From the NCBI GenBank assembly GCA_026706845.1, contig JAPOXY010000205.1:1-46373 (forward strand): DNA of 46,373 bases, given 5' to 3'. The translations under genes and the position numbers were made by a program. Positions 39,178 to 46,068 of the stretch are shown here, one piece after another (position 1 is the first letter of the stretch; each line of letters begins with the position of its first letter). The notes under the pieces are model-generated. The model was not told the origin of the DNA and searched no databases. It saw only the letters and a program-made list of their open reading frames with translations. The stretch is from Gemmatimonadota bacterium (GTDB taxonomy: Bacteria > Latescibacterota > UBA2968).

Positions 39178-42100
39178 ATGAGTTTTAACACCCTTCGTAT
39201 TGCTCGGGGCATTGTATTTTTTTTAATCTGTGTCGTGAAGGCGTACGCACAGCTGCCCGTGCCAGAGCAGTTTACGTTGTTCGATGGGGAACGGGTGTTT
39301 CAAGCAGATGGAAGCCGCGGGCCTTTTTCGATTTCCGATCGCGCTATTGAGGCGAAGAGTGAACGGGTTTGGGTAGATGGGGTGTTGCTCGTTCGGGATC
39401 GGGATTATGTGGTGGATGCAGATCGCGCGTTGCTGACGCTTTTGCGAAATGTTGCGCGGGGTGTGGAGATTGTGGTGCGTTTTAGGCAGCGTCCTCTGGT
39501 AACTGCACCTGTGGTTCAGCGTCGCCAGTTTCAACCGGGGAAAGGCAGTGGGGATCAACCGATTGTGCGCGTGTTTTCTCCGCCTGTTGTGCGAGATAGG
39601 AATGAGGAGGAGAAGTTGACGATTGGTGGTCATAAGAGTATTTCTGTGACCGCAGGATCACAACACGCGGTTCATCAGGCTTTGCAGTTGCGTATTTCGG
39701 GCGAGGTCGCCGAGGGGGTCAATTTATTGGCTGTGCTGTCCGATCGCAATTTGCCAGTAGGGGAGCAGGGAGGATCAAAGCGGTTGCAGGAATTAGATCG
39801 CGTGTTTTTTCAGGTTGACTCCGACCAGGTATCGGCCACGCTCGGCGATCTCGATGTGGCGTTTGACGAGACTGTGTTTGGGCGCTATCGGAGGCAGTTG
39901 CAGGGTGCGCGCGTGTTGGCCTATCGAGAGAAGGGACAAGTTGCGGCTTTTGGGGCGGTGTCGCGGGGACGTTGGGAAACGCGGCGGTTGGTGACGATTG
40001 AAGGGTTTCAGGGACCTTATTCGTTGTCGGGTGGTGGGTTGAGGGGGCAAATTGTGCCGGAGTCTGAGCGCGTGTATCTCAATGGGCGATTGCTCACCCG
40101 CGGGGATGGGGCAGATTATACGATTGATTACGAGCGCGGGCATGTGGCGTTTATGCCTGAGATACCAATTGGGGTCGAGAGCCGCGTTACAGTGGAGTAT
40201 CAGGTGATTGATGCCGGTATGAGAAGCCGGCTGATGGGTATGGAGTCCCGCATGTCGCTCGCTGAGGGGATGTCTGTGGGGACGACGCTGATTCGAGAGT
40301 CTGATCGTTCCGCATTATCGCCCGGACCTACTGCGGTGCAGCGGCAGTTGGGGGTGGTGTACGCGACGTACACGCCGTGGTCAAATGCGCGCGTTTCTGG
40401 GGAGGTTGCCCTGAGTGATCGGGATTCGGGAAGTGGGCGCGGGGTTCGCATGGACGGCGCGTGGACAGGGCGCGATTTTGAAGTCACGGGTCGGTTTCGC
40501 CAGGTTGGGGCCGATTTTGAAGCATTTGAGCGATTGGATAGGGGGCGGGCTGCCGGGCGATGGGGTTGGCAAGCCGATACTGCGCGAACTGCCCAACGCG
40601 AGGGCGAGGTGGCTGTGCGTTGGGATTTGGGCAAGGCACTTTCTATTACCGGGGAATACGGGCAGCATGTGGGTGTTGTGCGAACGGATCGGAAGAGTGT
40701 GGGGATCCGTTCACCTGTGGGGATGTATCGCTATGAGTCGCTCGGGCGCGATAGCGGCGGGATGCGCCGGCACGAGGGACAGGTTGAAGTGTCGATGGGG
40801 GAGGTTGTGCCAGGGTTCCGTTTTTCGCTGGAAAATGGGGTGGGCGATGGGGTGGGTAGCAGTTCGCTTTTTTATGCGGCGCGTCCACGCGTTTTGCCCG
40901 AGGGCATTGACAAACAGGAGTTGGTGTGGCACCTGGGCATTGGCGAAGGGCGAAATTGGTCGTGGGTATCGGAGTTGAAATACCGGAAGTTCAGGCAGCG
41001 AGAAACGGTGTGGCAGGATAGTTTGCGCGGTTGGTTGCATACCCACAGGGCACAGGTGACAAATTGGAGGGGCTGGATTTTTTCGGGTTCTTATACGCAC
41101 GGAGAAATTCAGATCGGGCGCGAACGTCAGCAGACGACGACGCATCTGGGGCGCGTGCGGTTGGGGCATAATCGTCCCGGCTCGTCACATCAGATAACGT
41201 ATCGTGTTTCGAGTACGCGGGTCAGTCAGCCCATTTTTGTCGAGGTGGCGCCCGGGTTGGGAGAATATATTTGGGAGGATGCCAATGGCGATGGTTTGCG
41301 AGATGTGGAAGAGTTTGTGCCCGATGTCGATGGCGATTATGTGCGGGTTTATGATTACGGGCAGTTTGCCCCTGCACGCGATGGCGCGCTGGGCATGCGT
41401 CTGGAGATTGATTTTCGGCGTTTGATTGGAGATGAGCACTTTTTGTCCGTTGTTGCGCTGGATGCGTCGTTGCGCGCAGAGCGACAGATTGCGATTGGGA
41501 CAAGGCACGCGGCTCCCTGGGATCTGTTTGGTTTTGATGCGGATGCCGGGATTTTGGGTGCTCGCAGAGATGGATTGGTGCGTCTTTATTTGTTTCGGTA
41601 TCACAAACGGGGATCGCTGCGTTTGACTGCGCGCGTGCGCGGTCAGGTCAATCGGGCGTTTTACGGAGGTGCTGCCGAATCTTTTGTGCAGGGTGGGGCG
41701 TTGGGAAAATTGAGGCCTGGCAATCGCCTTGAACTGGAGACGGAATTTGATTTGGGGCACAGAGCGCGCGAGGGTGCCGGTGCTTTTGCCTATCGCATTG
41801 ATGGTGCGAGTGGTGCGCTGCGCTGTGCGTTCAGGTCTGCGCGTAAATGGTATTTGCGTTTGGGTGTTTTGGGTGGGCGAGATTGGGAAGGTATCAGGGT
41901 GTTGCGCGCGTGGCATGTCGGCGTTCAGCCAGAGGTGATTTACGCTTTGCCCGGTCGCGGGCGATTGCGCGGGCGGTTGGATTGGACGCGGGTTTGGGCG
42001 ACGGATGTAGTGCCCTTATTTTTGGGGTTGGCAAGGGGCAATCGCCAGGGACAGAACTGGGCGTGGCGGTTGGGGATGGATTACCGTTTTGGCAAATATG

Positions 42101-42189
42101 TATCGGCGCGGGTGATGTACGATGGGCGCATAAGACCTGCTCGTCAGACGATACATCTCGGGCGCATGGAGATGCGGGCGGTGTTTTGA
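39178..42189 (+). CDS. Large outer-membrane beta-barrel protein with two similar beta-domains
   Basis: This 1003-aa protein has a signal peptide ending AYA before QLPVPEQ. Two similar domains follow, one at about 37-105 (GPFSIS, then SERVWVDGVLLVRDRDYVVD) and one at about 278-345 (GPYSLSGGGL, then SERVYLNGRLL, DYTIDYERGHVAF). Both show the L-x-(D/N)-G-x-x-L-x-R-x-x-D-Y pattern. Residues beyond about 360 alternate polar and hydrophobic positions with many aromatic residues and end in MEMRAVF; a C-terminal Phe is typical of proteins inserted by the BAM machine. Near residue 700 DANGDGLRDVEEF plus PDVDGDYV looks like a calcium-binding D-x-N-x-D-G loop. The family is not named with confidence. 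The BamA-like gene follows 109 bp later. Confidence 0.75.
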   Translation: MSFNTLRIARGIVFFLICVVKAYAQLPVPEQFTLFDGERVFQADGSRGPFSISDRAIEAKSERVWVDGVLLVRDRDYVVDADRALLTLLRNVARGVEIVVRFRQRPLVTAPVVQRRQFQPGKGSGDQPIVRVFSPPVVRDRNEEEKLTIGGHKSISVTAGSQHAVHQALQLRISGEVAEGVNLLAVLSDRNLPVGEQGGSKRLQELDRVFFQVDSDQVSATLGDLDVAFDETVFGRYRRQLQGARVLAYREKGQVAAFGAVSRGRWETRRLVTIEGFQGPYSLSGGGLRGQIVPESERVYLNGRLLTRGDGADYTIDYERGHVAFMPEIPIGVESRVTVEYQVIDAGMRSRLMGMESRMSLAEGMSVGTTLIRESDRSALSPGPTAVQRQLGVVYATYTPWSNARVSGEVALSDRDSGSGRGVRMDGAWTGRDFEVTGRFRQVGADFEAFERLDRGRAAGRWGWQADTARTAQREGEVAVRWDLGKALSITGEYGQHVGVVRTDRKSVGIRSPVGMYRYESLGRDSGGMRRHEGQVEVSMGEVVPGFRFSLENGVGDGVGSSSLFYAARPRVLPEGIDKQELVWHLGIGEGRNWSWVSELKYRKFRQRETVWQDSLRGWLHTHRAQVTNWRGWIFSGSYTHGEIQIGRERQQTTTHLGRVRLGHNRPGSSHQITYRVSSTRVSQPIFVEVAPGLGEYIWEDANGDGLRDVEEFVPDVDGDYVRVYDYGQFAPARDGALGMRLEIDFRRLIGDEHFLSVVALDASLRAERQIAIGTRHAAPWDLFGFDADAGILGARRDGLVRLYLFRYHKRGSLRLTARVRGQVNRAFYGGAAESFVQGGALGKLRPGNRLELETEFDLGHRAREGAGAFAYRIDGASGALRCAFRSARKWYLRLGVLGGRDWEGIRVLRAWHVGVQPEVIYALPGRGRLRGRLDWTRVWATDVVPLFLGLARGNRQGQNWAWRLGMDYRFGKYVSARVMYDGRIRPARQTIHLGRMEMRAVF

Positions 42190-42225: not shown

Positions 42226-42316
42226 CGCAGATGGACGCAGATGAAAAATCAAGTGTAGGGGCGGTGCCCCTGTGCCCGCCCGTCGCGCAAAGGTGCAGAT
42301 GAATACGGATAAATAC
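42226..42316 (+). repeat. Dispersed-repeat-like block overlapping the Omp85 start
   Basis: The block contains CGCAGATGGACGCAGATGAA and the GC-rich inverted sequence GGGGCGG...CCGCCC at 42257-42280. A third related unit, TGCAGATGAATACGGATAAA, is at 42294-42313. Such GCAGATGAA and GGGGCGGTGCCCC units are familiar as intergenic repeats in some environmental bacterial genomes. The third unit supplies the start codon of the next gene. Confidence 0.55.
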
Positions 42317-43969
42317 ATAAAAATATGGCGGTATTTGCTTTTTGCGATTTGGATGGCCTGTGTCGGTTCCAGCGCGGGGGGAGAGGTGCGTGCGATTGTG
42401 AAGCGCGTGCAGGTTGAAGGTACGCGGTCTGTAAGTGCGCGCGATGTGCGGGGGTGGTTGGTTACGCGGGCAGGGGTTGCGGTGGATTCGGCGTTGTTGC
42501 GGAAGGATGTTTACCGCATTTTGAAGGGGTATCAGGCGCGTGGATTCTGGCATGTGGCGGTGGCTTTTCCCAGGGTTGCCATGCGCGCGGGCGACGCGGC
42601 GGTGGCTTTTGCGATTGTTGAAGGGGTGCGAACGCGGGTCGCGTCTGTGGATGTGCGCGGTGATTTGATTTTTGATCAATCTGATGTGCTTATGACATTT
42701 GGTCTGGCGCAGGGTATGGTGTTGCTTGAGAGCGATTTGAACCAGCGGTTGGATCATTTGTTGCGTTTTTATGAAGATCAGGGCTACCCGTTTTGCGCGT
42801 TGCGTCCAGATGTGCGATTTGATGGTGATGAGGCGCGGGTAGAGGTGGTGGTGTCGCCCGGTCCTCTGGTGCATGTCAATGCGGTGCGTTTTGAGGGCAA
42901 TCAAACGACGCGGGAAGATGTTTTGTTGCGGCATATTTCGTTTGTTGCGGGCGAGGTCTATGATCAGCGTCGCGTGGATGCTTTTGTGAGGCAGTTGCAG
43001 AATTTGCCGTTTATTGACCGAGTTTATGCGCCTGAACTCGTATCTACCGGTGGTGAGATGGCGCTTGTGATCAGTGTAGAGGAGTCGCGCCACACGCGCG
43101 TTGAAGGGGTGCTCGGTGTGGGGTCTGGACAGGGTTTGACCGGGGAGATCGCGCTCGATGTTCTGAATTTTTCCGGTGGGGGACGAGAGGGTTACGCGCT
43201 GTGGTCGCGGCAGGGTGTGGGGTTGTCGAATTTGCATGTGTCGTATCGCGAACCCTATGTGTTAAATAGCCCGCTTTCAGGTTGGGGTGCTGTGGAGACG
43301 GTTGCGCGTCCGGGGTATGTGACGCATAAGTTTGGGGGTGGCGCAGATGTTTCTGTGGGTGAGGGCGCGCGGTTTTTTGGCGGTGTTGCACACAGGCGCG
43401 TTTTGCCCGATTCTTCGGGGTTGGAATTTTTCGAGGCTGAGAGGATGTGGTCTATCGAGTCAGGTGTTCGGTTTGATCGACGGGGGCATGCTATGGGCGG
43501 TTGGAAAGCGGAGATCAGGGGAGAGATTGGCGAGGTTTCAGATGGGGTCCGGCGCGTGCAGTGGGGTGTTGATGGACAGGTGTTTTTGCCTGTGGGCAGG
43601 CAGTCTGTTGTTGCTGGTCGAGCGCGCGCTTTTTGGGTGGGACAAAAGGGGAATGTGCCGCAGTCTGCTGGCATCTGGCTGGGGGGCGCACAATCGCTGC
43701 GGGGCTATCGGGAAGAGATGTTTTGGGGGACGAATGCGGGGTGGGTCAATGTGGAATGGCGGTGGTTGCTGGGTCCGAAAACGCGGCTTTTTGCTTTTGT
43801 CGATGCGGGGCGGATTGAAGGGGCAGGGACGCATTCATGGCCCGTGTCCTACGGCATTGGTCTGTTGGCAAATGGACGTATGGGTGCAGTTGGGATAGAT
43901 TATGGATTGCCACGGGGCGAGAGTTTGGGACAGGGTATGGTGCATGTGCGGATGGTCAGTGCGTTTTAG
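42299..43969 (+). CDS. Omp85-superfamily protein (BamA/TamA-like)
   Basis: The 556-aa protein has a signal sequence (KIWRYLLFAIWMACVGSSAGG). About three POTRA domains follow: VKRVQVEGTRSVSARDVRGW, VASVDVRGDLIFDQSDVLM and VNAVRFEGNQTTREDVLLRH. The C-terminal 16-strand-type barrel has the conserved loop-6-like GGAQSLRGYREE motif (S-x-R-G-Y) and ends in MVSAF with a terminal Phe. Omp85 proteins insert or export outer-membrane proteins. It is shorter than a classical BamA (about 800 aa, five POTRAs), closer to TamA. The ATG at 42299 is preceded by AAAGGTGCAG and lies inside a dispersed repeat; 9 further in-frame residues upstream are unlikely. Its likely client is the neighbouring 1003-aa barrel protein. 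Confidence 0.88.
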   Translation: MNTDKYIKIWRYLLFAIWMACVGSSAGGEVRAIVKRVQVEGTRSVSARDVRGWLVTRAGVAVDSALLRKDVYRILKGYQARGFWHVAVAFPRVAMRAGDAAVAFAIVEGVRTRVASVDVRGDLIFDQSDVLMTFGLAQGMVLLESDLNQRLDHLLRFYEDQGYPFCALRPDVRFDGDEARVEVVVSPGPLVHVNAVRFEGNQTTREDVLLRHISFVAGEVYDQRRVDAFVRQLQNLPFIDRVYAPELVSTGGEMALVISVEESRHTRVEGVLGVGSGQGLTGEIALDVLNFSGGGREGYALWSRQGVGLSNLHVSYREPYVLNSPLSGWGAVETVARPGYVTHKFGGGADVSVGEGARFFGGVAHRRVLPDSSGLEFFEAERMWSIESGVRFDRRGHAMGGWKAEIRGEIGEVSDGVRRVQWGVDGQVFLPVGRQSVVAGRARAFWVGQKGNVPQSAGIWLGGAQSLRGYREEMFWGTNAGWVNVEWRWLLGPKTRLFAFVDAGRIEGAGTHSWPVSYGIGLLANGRMGAVGIDYGLPRGESLGQGMVHVRMVSAF

Positions 43970-44064: not shown

Positions 44065-45987
44065 ATGTTGAACAGGATTCGCAGTATCATGATGTTAGTA
44101 CTCGCCGCAGGTCTCATGTGGGGCTGTGGTGGCGAGCGCGGGATGGAGTCTTCCGGGGTAGATGAACAGATTGGACGCCCGCTGAGTAAAATGGTCGTAG
44201 CGGGTGGGGGTATGTCTCAGGCGACGGTGGTGGCGACTGTGTCGCAAGATGATGCGCCTGTGGCAGGTGTGATGGTCGAGTTTGCGCGTTCTATTGCCGG
44301 GCAGATGCCCGATTATCAGTGGTCGGGTATGACCGATGATATGGGGCGCGTCACAGTGGAGATATCCGGTCAGGTGAGTGGATATTATCAGGCACGCGCT
44401 TCTCAAGATGGTTCTGTGATGGGGCGCTGGTCGAGTATTCCGATCAATGGAGGCTATACGTCAACAGTTGCGTTGCCCATTGGTGGACAGGCGCAGGTGA
44501 CGGGTACGTCTAAACTCATATCAGTTGGCCTGGTTGTGTCTCAAACGGGGCGGTTATCCGAGACTGGGCAGGGGTTTATCAATGGCTTTGAAATGGCTCT
44601 TGAAGAGGTGAACTCACAACTGAGCGATATGACTTTGAGGTTTATTGTCGAGGATGATCAGAGCACTATAGAAGGCGCTACTACAGCGTATAATAAACTC
44701 ATTTATGAAGATGGCGTGCCAGTTATTCTCGGTGTTTATACTTCTACCATGGTGCGCGCGGTTTTTCCCATTGCACAGGAAAATGAAGTCGTGGCGATCA
44801 GTCCCACTTCGGCCGCACGCGGCCTCAGCGCGATTGGCGATTTTGTTTTTCGCGTCGCCCTTACTGTTGATGCGCTGATTCCGGGGGGTGTAAAACTGAC
44901 GCGGGAAAAATTGGACTATGAGCGCGTGGTTACGATGTTTCAAAATATGGATGTTTTTTCGCAGAGTAGCGATGAGGTGTTGAAAAGTGCCTTTAGTGAG
45001 AACGGGGTCGAGGTTCTGACTACTGAGACTTTTGAAACCGGCGCTATGGATCTTTCCGCGCAATTTTCCCGGATTGTGGCGTTGAATCCAGATGCGATTT
45101 TTGTTTCGGCTATATCAGCAGGGCGAACACAGGCTCTGATCGATGGGGGACAACACGGTATTCCTATCCTGATGCCCCTGCTTACTATGGATGAGGTAGA
45201 ACGCGCCGGGGAGGCAGCTGAGGGGGCAATTAGTTTTACGTATTGGAGCAGTACGGGCAATGTGCTGGCCAATCGCGTCTTTGTTGAGAATTATATGACG
45301 AAATACGGTGCCGCGCCGGGCCGATTCGCCGCCGTGTCCTACGCGACGGTTCACATTTTGGCAAAGGCGATTGCAGATGCCCGGTCCCCTGATTCGCACG
45401 CGATTCGGGACGCATTGGCTCAAATCGAGAATTTGGACACGATTTTGGGTTCGTTTTCTTTTGATGCCAATGGCGATGCGGTTTACGATCCGGCTGTTCT
45501 GATTGTCAAGGATGGGAAATTTGAGGTGTTTGATACAAAAACTGCCTTGGCGGCAATCGGCGAGACGAACGAAAGCGGTGTGGCTGGAAAAGCGGTTTTC
45601 ACACAAATCGGTGATAATATCAAGCTCGTCGTCTCGCTCGCTAATGCGTCCGCAGGCGAACACGCTGTCCATATCCACACAACTGGCGATTGCAGTGCGC
45701 CAGACGGGACATCGGCTGGCGGGCATTGGAATCCCACTGGCGTTGCACACGGAAAATGGGGAGAAGGTGAATTTCACCTCGGCGACATTGGCAATATGAC
45801 TGTGGATGATCAAGGCATGGGGAAAATTGAACTGACGACAAATCTGTGGGAGATGAACACTGGCTCAGACATAGATATTGTTGGAAAAGCGATCATCGTC
45901 CATGCGGGTGCTGATGATTTTGTGTCACAACCTTCGGGCAATGCTGGCGCACGTATCGGTTGCGGCGTGATTGAGTTAGGACAGTAA
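44065..45987 (+). CDS. Lipoprotein fusing an amino-acid-type solute-binding domain to Cu/Zn superoxide dismutase
   Basis: The 640-aa protein has an N-terminal signal with the likely lipidated C21 (WGCGGE). An Ig-like beta-domain lies at about 48-148, and a LivJ/periplasmic-binding-protein type I domain at about 150-490 (ISVGLVVSQTGRLSETGQGF, IVEDDQST, VILGVYTSTMVRAVFPIA, AAVSYATVHILAKAI). The last ~135 residues are a complete Cu/Zn SOD. Copper ligands are H536 and H538 in VHIH, bridging H554 in GGHWNP, and H613 in IIVHAGADD. Zinc ligands are H562, H571 and D574. The disulfide pair is C543 and C633, with the active-site Arg in NAGARIGCGV. All key residues are intact. It may sense a ligand and remove superoxide at the envelope. 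No permease gene is adjacent. Confidence 0.9.
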   Translation: MLNRIRSIMMLVLAAGLMWGCGGERGMESSGVDEQIGRPLSKMVVAGGGMSQATVVATVSQDDAPVAGVMVEFARSIAGQMPDYQWSGMTDDMGRVTVEISGQVSGYYQARASQDGSVMGRWSSIPINGGYTSTVALPIGGQAQVTGTSKLISVGLVVSQTGRLSETGQGFINGFEMALEEVNSQLSDMTLRFIVEDDQSTIEGATTAYNKLIYEDGVPVILGVYTSTMVRAVFPIAQENEVVAISPTSAARGLSAIGDFVFRVALTVDALIPGGVKLTREKLDYERVVTMFQNMDVFSQSSDEVLKSAFSENGVEVLTTETFETGAMDLSAQFSRIVALNPDAIFVSAISAGRTQALIDGGQHGIPILMPLLTMDEVERAGEAAEGAISFTYWSSTGNVLANRVFVENYMTKYGAAPGRFAAVSYATVHILAKAIADARSPDSHAIRDALAQIENLDTILGSFSFDANGDAVYDPAVLIVKDGKFEVFDTKTALAAIGETNESGVAGKAVFTQIGDNIKLVVSLANASAGEHAVHIHTTGDCSAPDGTSAGGHWNPTGVAHGKWGEGEFHLGDIGNMTVDDQGMGKIELTTNLWEMNTGSDIDIVGKAIIVHAGADDFVSQPSGNAGARIGCGVIELGQ

Positions 45988-46033
45988 TAGGAGACAGAAA
46001 GTTTTGTTAAACGGTGTGAAAGCATAGCATGAG

Positions 46034-46068
46034 AAAGGGCGCGTTTAAAACGCGCCCTTTTTCTATTT
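46034..46068 (+). terminator. Intrinsic terminator after the binding-protein/SOD gene
   Basis: AAAGGGCGCG and CGCGCCCTTT form a perfect 10-bp stem with loop TTTAAAA, followed by TTCTATTT. Placed 47 bp after the stop codon. Confidence 0.9.

Follow-up and report, generated by a model that had tools for sequence, protein, structure and literature searches.

A conserved lipoprotein of Latescibacterota that joins a Cu/Zn superoxide dismutase to an apparently exchangeable solute-binding domain

Extracytoplasmic Cu/Zn superoxide dismutases (SODs) are usually free or anchored single-domain enzymes. Fusions of the Cu/Zn SOD domain to other domains also occur: according to the available part of one report, InterPro holds 276 domain architectures that contain it, and the same report describes DrSOD (DRA0202) of Deinococcus, in which a Cu/Zn SOD and a beta-propeller lactonase form a single chain, and which is the closest published parallel that we found to the protein described here (PMC12362111). 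As far as that part of the report extends, DrSOD resembles our fusion in that an intact, secreted bacterial Cu/Zn SOD is joined to an unrelated domain and confined to one lineage, and differs from it in that the SOD is N-terminal, the partner is an enzyme and a solute-binding domain is absent; nothing is said there of the partner being exchanged (PMC12362111). No propeller (SGL/TolB-like) was matched by Pfam on the fusion chain, where the partner is a type I solute-binding protein (SBP) domain. HAAT/LivJ proteins (3td9, 4nqr) share its two-lobed fold along the full domain, at 24-26% identity, but in the fusion this domain lies between a leader and an SOD and has no adjacent LivHMGF genes. The free SOD lipoproteins of Poribacteria share with the fusion all ligands, a lipoprotein-like leader and an SOD part that is 65-75% identical, but are about 190 aa long and contain neither a binding domain nor the leader module; other lipoproteins of the genus carry the same leader before ligand-binding domains, but their C-terminal parts differ and include no SOD. 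Literature searches at title level found no published account of an SBP-SOD fusion. InterPro may already contain the architecture without a name for it; among the known multi-domain Cu/Zn SODs it is a new one.

The window analysed here is the whole stretch of 46,373 nucleotides, which is the entire contig C205 of a source genome (G000) of 5.46 Mb in 279 contigs. Positions 44065-45987 on the forward strand, on which the features listed in this paragraph lie, form a single open frame of 640 aa whose stop is followed by 386 bases to the end of the contig. The coordinates, the single frame and the domain order given in an earlier note on this DNA all hold under translation and Pfam: a lipoprotein leader is followed by a beta-sandwich module, a Peripla_BP_6 domain and a Cu/Zn SOD. 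The signal peptide (44065-44127), read by eye from the translation, has a lipobox (LMWG-C) with predicted lipidation at Cys21, a residue kept in 11 of 11 aligned copies of the same gene. It precedes a leader module of disordered stalk and beta-sandwich (residues 22-148; 44128-44508), a binding domain that we term type A (residues 149-490; 44509-45534), a short linker whose length differs between relatives in the segment alignment (residues 491-503; 45535-45573), and the SOD (residues 504-640; 45574-45984). A terminator-like hairpin with a T run, compared by sequence and unscored, lies past the stop (46034-46062), and a POTRA/Omp85 gene, whose position is constant by synteny in the genus, ends 95 bp upstream (42272-43969).

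The fusion is real and conserved and is not an artefact. The same domain order was sought in related genomes, as the earlier note had proposed, and the full fusion was recovered, among the matches listed, in 10 of 64 Latescibacterota genomes from two families: seven of the 11 genomes of the window's genus (G000-G006, the source genome included) and three of the four members of a second genus in the second family (G015-G017). The other nine proteins are 62-95% identical to that of the window (among the matches listed). Cu/Zn SODs occur in 19 of the 64 genomes; all 10 in families f1 and f2 sit in frames of 644-677 aa, one per genome, and the remaining nine, all of family f4, lie outside such frames, one of them being cut by a contig end. 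Two separate genes as the rule in relatives, a doubt raised in the earlier note, is thus rejected, since every one of the 10 SODs in families f1 and f2 is fused. The other doubt raised there, an assembly or binning error that joined two genes, has practically no chance of being right: fragmented bins do make up nine of the 11 genomes of the genus and the entire second genus with its four members, but the same frame and junction recur in 10 separately binned genomes, syntenically within the genus, and the contigs that carry a second type of binding domain (type B, below) have genus-specific flanks at about 90% identity.

Within the genus the locus runs through genes for an aminotransferase, a sulfatase, an NHL protein, a 1003-aa protein, the POTRA/Omp85 protein and the fusion, followed by PIG-L and MFS genes on the opposite strand (G001 and G006 differ on this 3' side). 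The 1003-aa protein (39178-42189) is barrel-like by eye, has no Pfam match above cut-off, and is syntenic with the Omp85 gene across the genus. In the second family the fusion lies at another location, between genes for large proteins of mostly about 1100 aa. G007, a single-contig genome, has at the same locus a gene that stops after residue 490, with a type A domain, no SOD, and then a similar hairpin terminator; its type A domain is nested within the clade of fused type A domains (SH-aLRT 88 and 86), so that loss of the SOD is the simplest history. G014 and G019 lack the fusion at this place, where PIG-L/MFS or MFS genes come directly after the Omp85 gene; G008 has a different gene at the fusion position, and the contigs of G009 and G010 stop there. 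Because no Cu/Zn SOD was detected in four of the 11 genus members (G007-G010), the enzyme is dispensable in the genus.

The SOD domain was described in the earlier note as intact, and this is borne out. Sod_Cu (PF00080) matches residues 506-636 (E 9.6e-37; 126.8 bits against a cut-off of 28.9) over positions 1-133 of the 133 in the profile, and the nearest solved chain is 7b4o (E 1.7e-34). With positions mapped onto what we take to be human SOD1 numbering, the copper ligands (H536, H538, H554, H613), the zinc ligands (H562, H571, D574 and the shared H554), the disulfide cysteines (C543/C633) and the active-site R630, whose codons span 45670-45963, are conserved throughout the 10 fusions. Across the 12 compared pairs that possess the SOD, dN/dS is 0 to 0.26. 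The domain falls below the cut-offs of the NCBIfam SodC equivalogs NF047632 (75.6 against 250 bits), NF007628 (45.8 against 165) and NF047631 (40.2 against 230), and is by sequence a member of the SOD superfamily that belongs to none of the three. No second Cu/Zn SOD was found in any of the 10 fused genomes. One Fe/Mn SOD per genome was present in all 16 genomes checked, and the fused enzyme would therefore supplement it. We consider that the SOD is probably envelope-tethered and active.

Peripla_BP_6 (PF13458) matches residues 152-479 (E 2.1e-47; 162.9 bits against a cut-off of 31.7), and the predicted domain aligns with 3td9 at full length, in both lobes, with Z 43.4 over 337 residues and 26% identity, so that the label 'LivJ-type' in the earlier note is correct as to fold. 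When it was aligned with LivJ of S. pneumoniae (4gnr, alignment only), the acidic pocket residue, which we take to hold the alpha-amino group in 4gnr, had no clear counterpart. AlphaFold2, run on 28 aligned sequences, gave a confidence of about 75-97 per ten-residue block for the binding domain and the SOD (one SOD block reached 62) and a low one for residues 1-148. The binding domain has a dN/dS of 0.11-0.32 in 14 pairs; as these values indicate purifying selection and the SOD residues are intact, both domains are maintained. No ABC permease or ATPase gene stands beside the fusion, as the earlier note had also observed, and its neighbours are the Omp85, NHL, sulfatase and aminotransferase genes; the four BPD_transp_2 permeases of the genome lie on other contigs, two of them on C124 next to another SBP that by eye resembles UrtA. 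The further claim that the SOD is tethered to the binding domain stands as a statement of structure, with the domains and the leader on one chain.

The leader module was called Ig-like in the earlier note, which fits the kind of fold and is imprecise as to family. Predicted alone with AlphaFold2, residues 22-151 form an all-beta sandwich of eight strands behind about 27 disordered residues; Big_1 (PF02369) matches residues 48-117 under its cut-off (24.5 bits in the whole protein and 27.3 in the module alone, against 34.9), and Foldseek gives weak matches to transthyretin-like, CnaB and further beta-sandwich folds. Overlooked in that note was that the module is a chassis common to many lipoproteins in the genome, where it has at least 14 matches at E<=1e-10, the fusion gene included. 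In the proteins examined, its partners are Peripla_BP_6 domains (single or in tandem), an SBP_bac_3-like domain (sub-cut-off) and Cache domains, while the protein on C34 has no Pfam match; lipoproteins with the module ahead of ligand-binding domains lie on C227 (tandem SBP-SBP), C79, C147, C141, C21 and C114. Since the partners are mostly ligand-recognising and without kinase parts, the family looks like a group of anchored proteins serving as receptors or scavengers, of which one is armed with an SOD.

Further lipoproteins of this build were observed along the way. One in G004 (L221:478-3726, on C286) combines the leader module and Peripla_BP_6 with a C-terminal Peptidase_S55 match below threshold (22.4 of 25 bits), and would be a further case of an enzyme-like part placed after a binding domain. 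The tandem paralogue (L002:1450-4056 on C227 of G000, and L213-L219) has its second binding domain in G000, G001, G002, G004 and G006; this domain is missing in G003, G005 and G007, and the copy in G010 is truncated where its contig stops. Its presence or absence by genome indicates that the C-terminal part of the tandem paralogue also comes and goes. Two other proteins of the source genome (L098 on C265, with a weak Cache match, and L099 on C83, judged by eye) contain the beta-sandwich module and end in a FlgD_ig or Por_Secre_tail-like part. In the second family several leader-module binding lipoproteins stand in tandem (L222-L224, on G015:C37, G016:C36 and G017:C33), and Poribacteria show similar SBP arrays, for example on G081:C18, among the matches listed.

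Comparison of the fused genes within the genus points to a mosaic structure, which the earlier note had also overlooked: the sequences show cassette replacement of the binding domain among relatives. At one syntenic locus, the leader module and SOD are 84-99% identical in amino acids within the genus (in a segment alignment of 11 copies of the same gene, the leader module is 86-91% and the SOD 85-99% identical to that of the window). The binding domain, by contrast, is of two types that are only about 46-62% identical to each other: type A in five genomes (G000, G001, G003, G006 and G007; 81-97% identical to the window) and type B in three (G002, G004 and G005; 46-58% identical to the window). 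In these three, sliding DNA identity to the window lies mostly at 80-95% to the left and right of the binding domain and falls to 58-66% only within about 44500-45400, inside that domain (the row at 46000, which is not homologous between genomes, was excluded); the exchanged stretch would correspond to residues 150-476 (44512-45492, breakpoints approximate). Type B is 98-99% identical among its three bearers, above the identity of their own flanks, and occurs in G002 with an SOD 98% like that of the window and in G004 and G005 with SODs at 85-89%; because type B is paired with divergent SODs, the binding domain and the SOD must have had separate histories.

Synonymous differences agree with this picture. 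Between G000 and G002 they amount to 19% in the leader, 63% in the binding domain and 14% in the SOD (Fisher p 4e-13 and 9e-17), and between G002 and G004 to 16%, 4% and 27% (p 2e-8 for the binding domain versus the SOD); G015 and G016, both of the second family, differ by 1%, 4% and 27% (p 5e-9). Between the families, pS is 0.30-0.37 for the leader and 0.42-0.52 for the SOD, below the 0.62-0.76 of the binding domain and the 0.73-0.74 of Omp85, the one comparison gene, a pattern that suggests transfer of the fusion from family to family. Conserved codons are present at both edges of the exchanged stretch, and short homology there would allow recombination of the binding domain.

Phylogenetic trees were built for each part. 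The 10 fused SODs group in a single clade (SH-aLRT 100), a point also missed by the earlier note, which lies amid SOD lipoproteins of Poribacteria and is separate from the family f4 SODs of Latescibacterota (75 of 79 rows, four cut copies of fused genes having been dropped), and the leader modules of all fused genes, here with the four cut copies (L166-L169), also form a single clade (SH-aLRT 98). In the SBP tree (103 rows of 122 domain hits, after duplicates and short ones were dropped), types A, B and C each form a clade of their own (support 100); type A groups with paralogues of the genus, while type B lies inside a clade of the three B and five Poribacterial domains (support 100). AU tests on 90 of the 103 rows (13 distant or long ones dropped) reject a single clade of A+B (p=0.0008), B+C (0.003) or A+B+C (3e-5). 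A clade of A+C is unrejected (p 0.26), and the tree therefore shows no third exchange. A direct search for type B in 80 chosen genomes (20 Latescibacterota and 60 Poribacteria) placed its nearest unfused relatives in Poribacteria, with 75% identity, while other SBPs of the 20 Latescibacterota reached no more than 61% (both among the matches listed). No gene with leader and type B but without SOD was seen among the relatives examined. Most simply, a leader, an A- or C-like binding domain and a Poribacteria-like SOD would have been fused once, and in three genomes a Poribacteria-like binding domain would then have replaced the earlier one. The donor of type B may have been Poribacterial; an identity of 75% is, however, far from a recent direct match.

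From these observations we hypothesize, as a probable though far from certain account, that the protein is an envelope-tethered SOD with an exchangeable ligand-binding domain. Putatively secreted and lipidated, it would be anchored in the cell envelope, probably in the outer membrane, through Cys21, the stalk and beta-sandwich raising the binding domain and the C-terminal SOD off the membrane; the SOD would most likely clear superoxide outside the cytoplasm, and the binding domain would capture a small molecule; the presence of the two on a single chain would presumably be of benefit. A receptor, concentrator or docking part is more likely here than an uptake component, because there is no adjacent transporter and numerous related lipoproteins share this construction and bear sensory-type domains. 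In evolution the protein would act as a three-part chassis in which the leader and SOD stay constant and the binding domain is swapped whole. More tentatively, and as a possibility rather than an expectation, the constant lipid anchor and constant payload (the SOD) might be combined with interchangeable binding domains, some of them cross-phylum, that bring or hold superoxide removal at a recognised molecule or partner. Rather doubtful is the simpler notion of a plain tethered antioxidant, in which the binding domain is an inherited spacer or filler whose binding has no bearing on the SOD, and recombination exchanges it neutrally. The SOD indeed stands alone in the Poribacterial lipoproteins of about 190 aa, the leader module bears many unrelated C-terminal domains, and G007 has the binding domain without the SOD, so that the two are separable; a filler would not, however, be expected to show purifying selection in 14 of 14 pairs, to keep the full two-lobed fold and to be replaced each time by another full-length binding domain, nor would SOD and Peripla_BP_6 genes be expected as neighbours in two of 40 Poribacterial loci or divergently arranged in G041 and G044.

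Antigenic or phage-escape variation, with an exposed binding domain, recognised by lectins of the host or by phage, being swapped for escape while the SOD independently protects from host oxidants, seems unlikely to us. The near identity of type B in three genomes with more divergent surroundings looks like the result of recent spread, and SOD alleles move too, as the values for G015 and G016 indicate, but surface exposure is presumed and dN/dS within a type is not raised (0.11-0.32). Still harder to credit is a transport role, in which the binding domain works with an ABC permease encoded elsewhere while the SOD protects an oxidisable ligand as it is taken up: this would suit the LivJ/HAAT binding-protein fold and the four permease genes of the genome, yet no permease is nearby, the two on C124 adjoin the other, UrtA-like SBP, and the leader-module lipoproteins (at least 14) outnumber the four permeases.

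A Cu/Zn SOD here bears a receptor-type domain in bacterial groups known from animal hosts, and host oxidants are a plausible threat to these bacteria. The genomes of these Latescibacterota presumably derive from sponges. For sponge Latescibacterota, the available part of one report names katG and sodA in the context of superoxide dismutase (PMC12993501). The natural set, in which types A and B each occur with SOD, type A also occurs alone and the SOD is also found free, offers a comparison for asking if a ligand domain steers an SOD, and the clean replacement of one domain in a conserved gene, from a source near another phylum, lets the exchange of single domains in uncultured bacteria be seen directly.

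In Poribacteria, PF00080 matches were found in 70 of 84 genomes, typically in frames of about 190-220 aa whose products are mostly 65-75% identical to the fused SOD; a follow-up search covered 81 of the 84. An SOD gene and a Peripla_BP_6 gene adjoin on the same strand in two of 40 Poribacterial SOD loci, an adjacency for which a rough estimate gives a chance of 0.03-0.2 (for 68 genes, at an assumed 8 SBPs per genome), and which, noted post hoc and against many loci without it, is suggestive. A fixed SBP-SOD gene pair was rejected, as only these two of the 40 loci have such an SBP in their flanks; a stable pair is further disfavoured because the SBP of G125, 95% identical to that of G060 (among the matches listed), has no SOD beside it. 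In G041 (L174:8246-10302) and G044 (L175:6570-8609) a free SOD lipoprotein gene is divergent from a Peripla_BP_6 lipoprotein gene, an arrangement not present in G027. A second, divergent SOD family, among the weak PF00080 matches, occurs in G128 (L177:1389-2585) and G139 (L178:1070-1783): in these two its copper-ligand histidines are kept, the zinc ligands are replaced by A, G and E, Arg143 by H and Cys146 by M, and these proteins resemble copper-only SODs.
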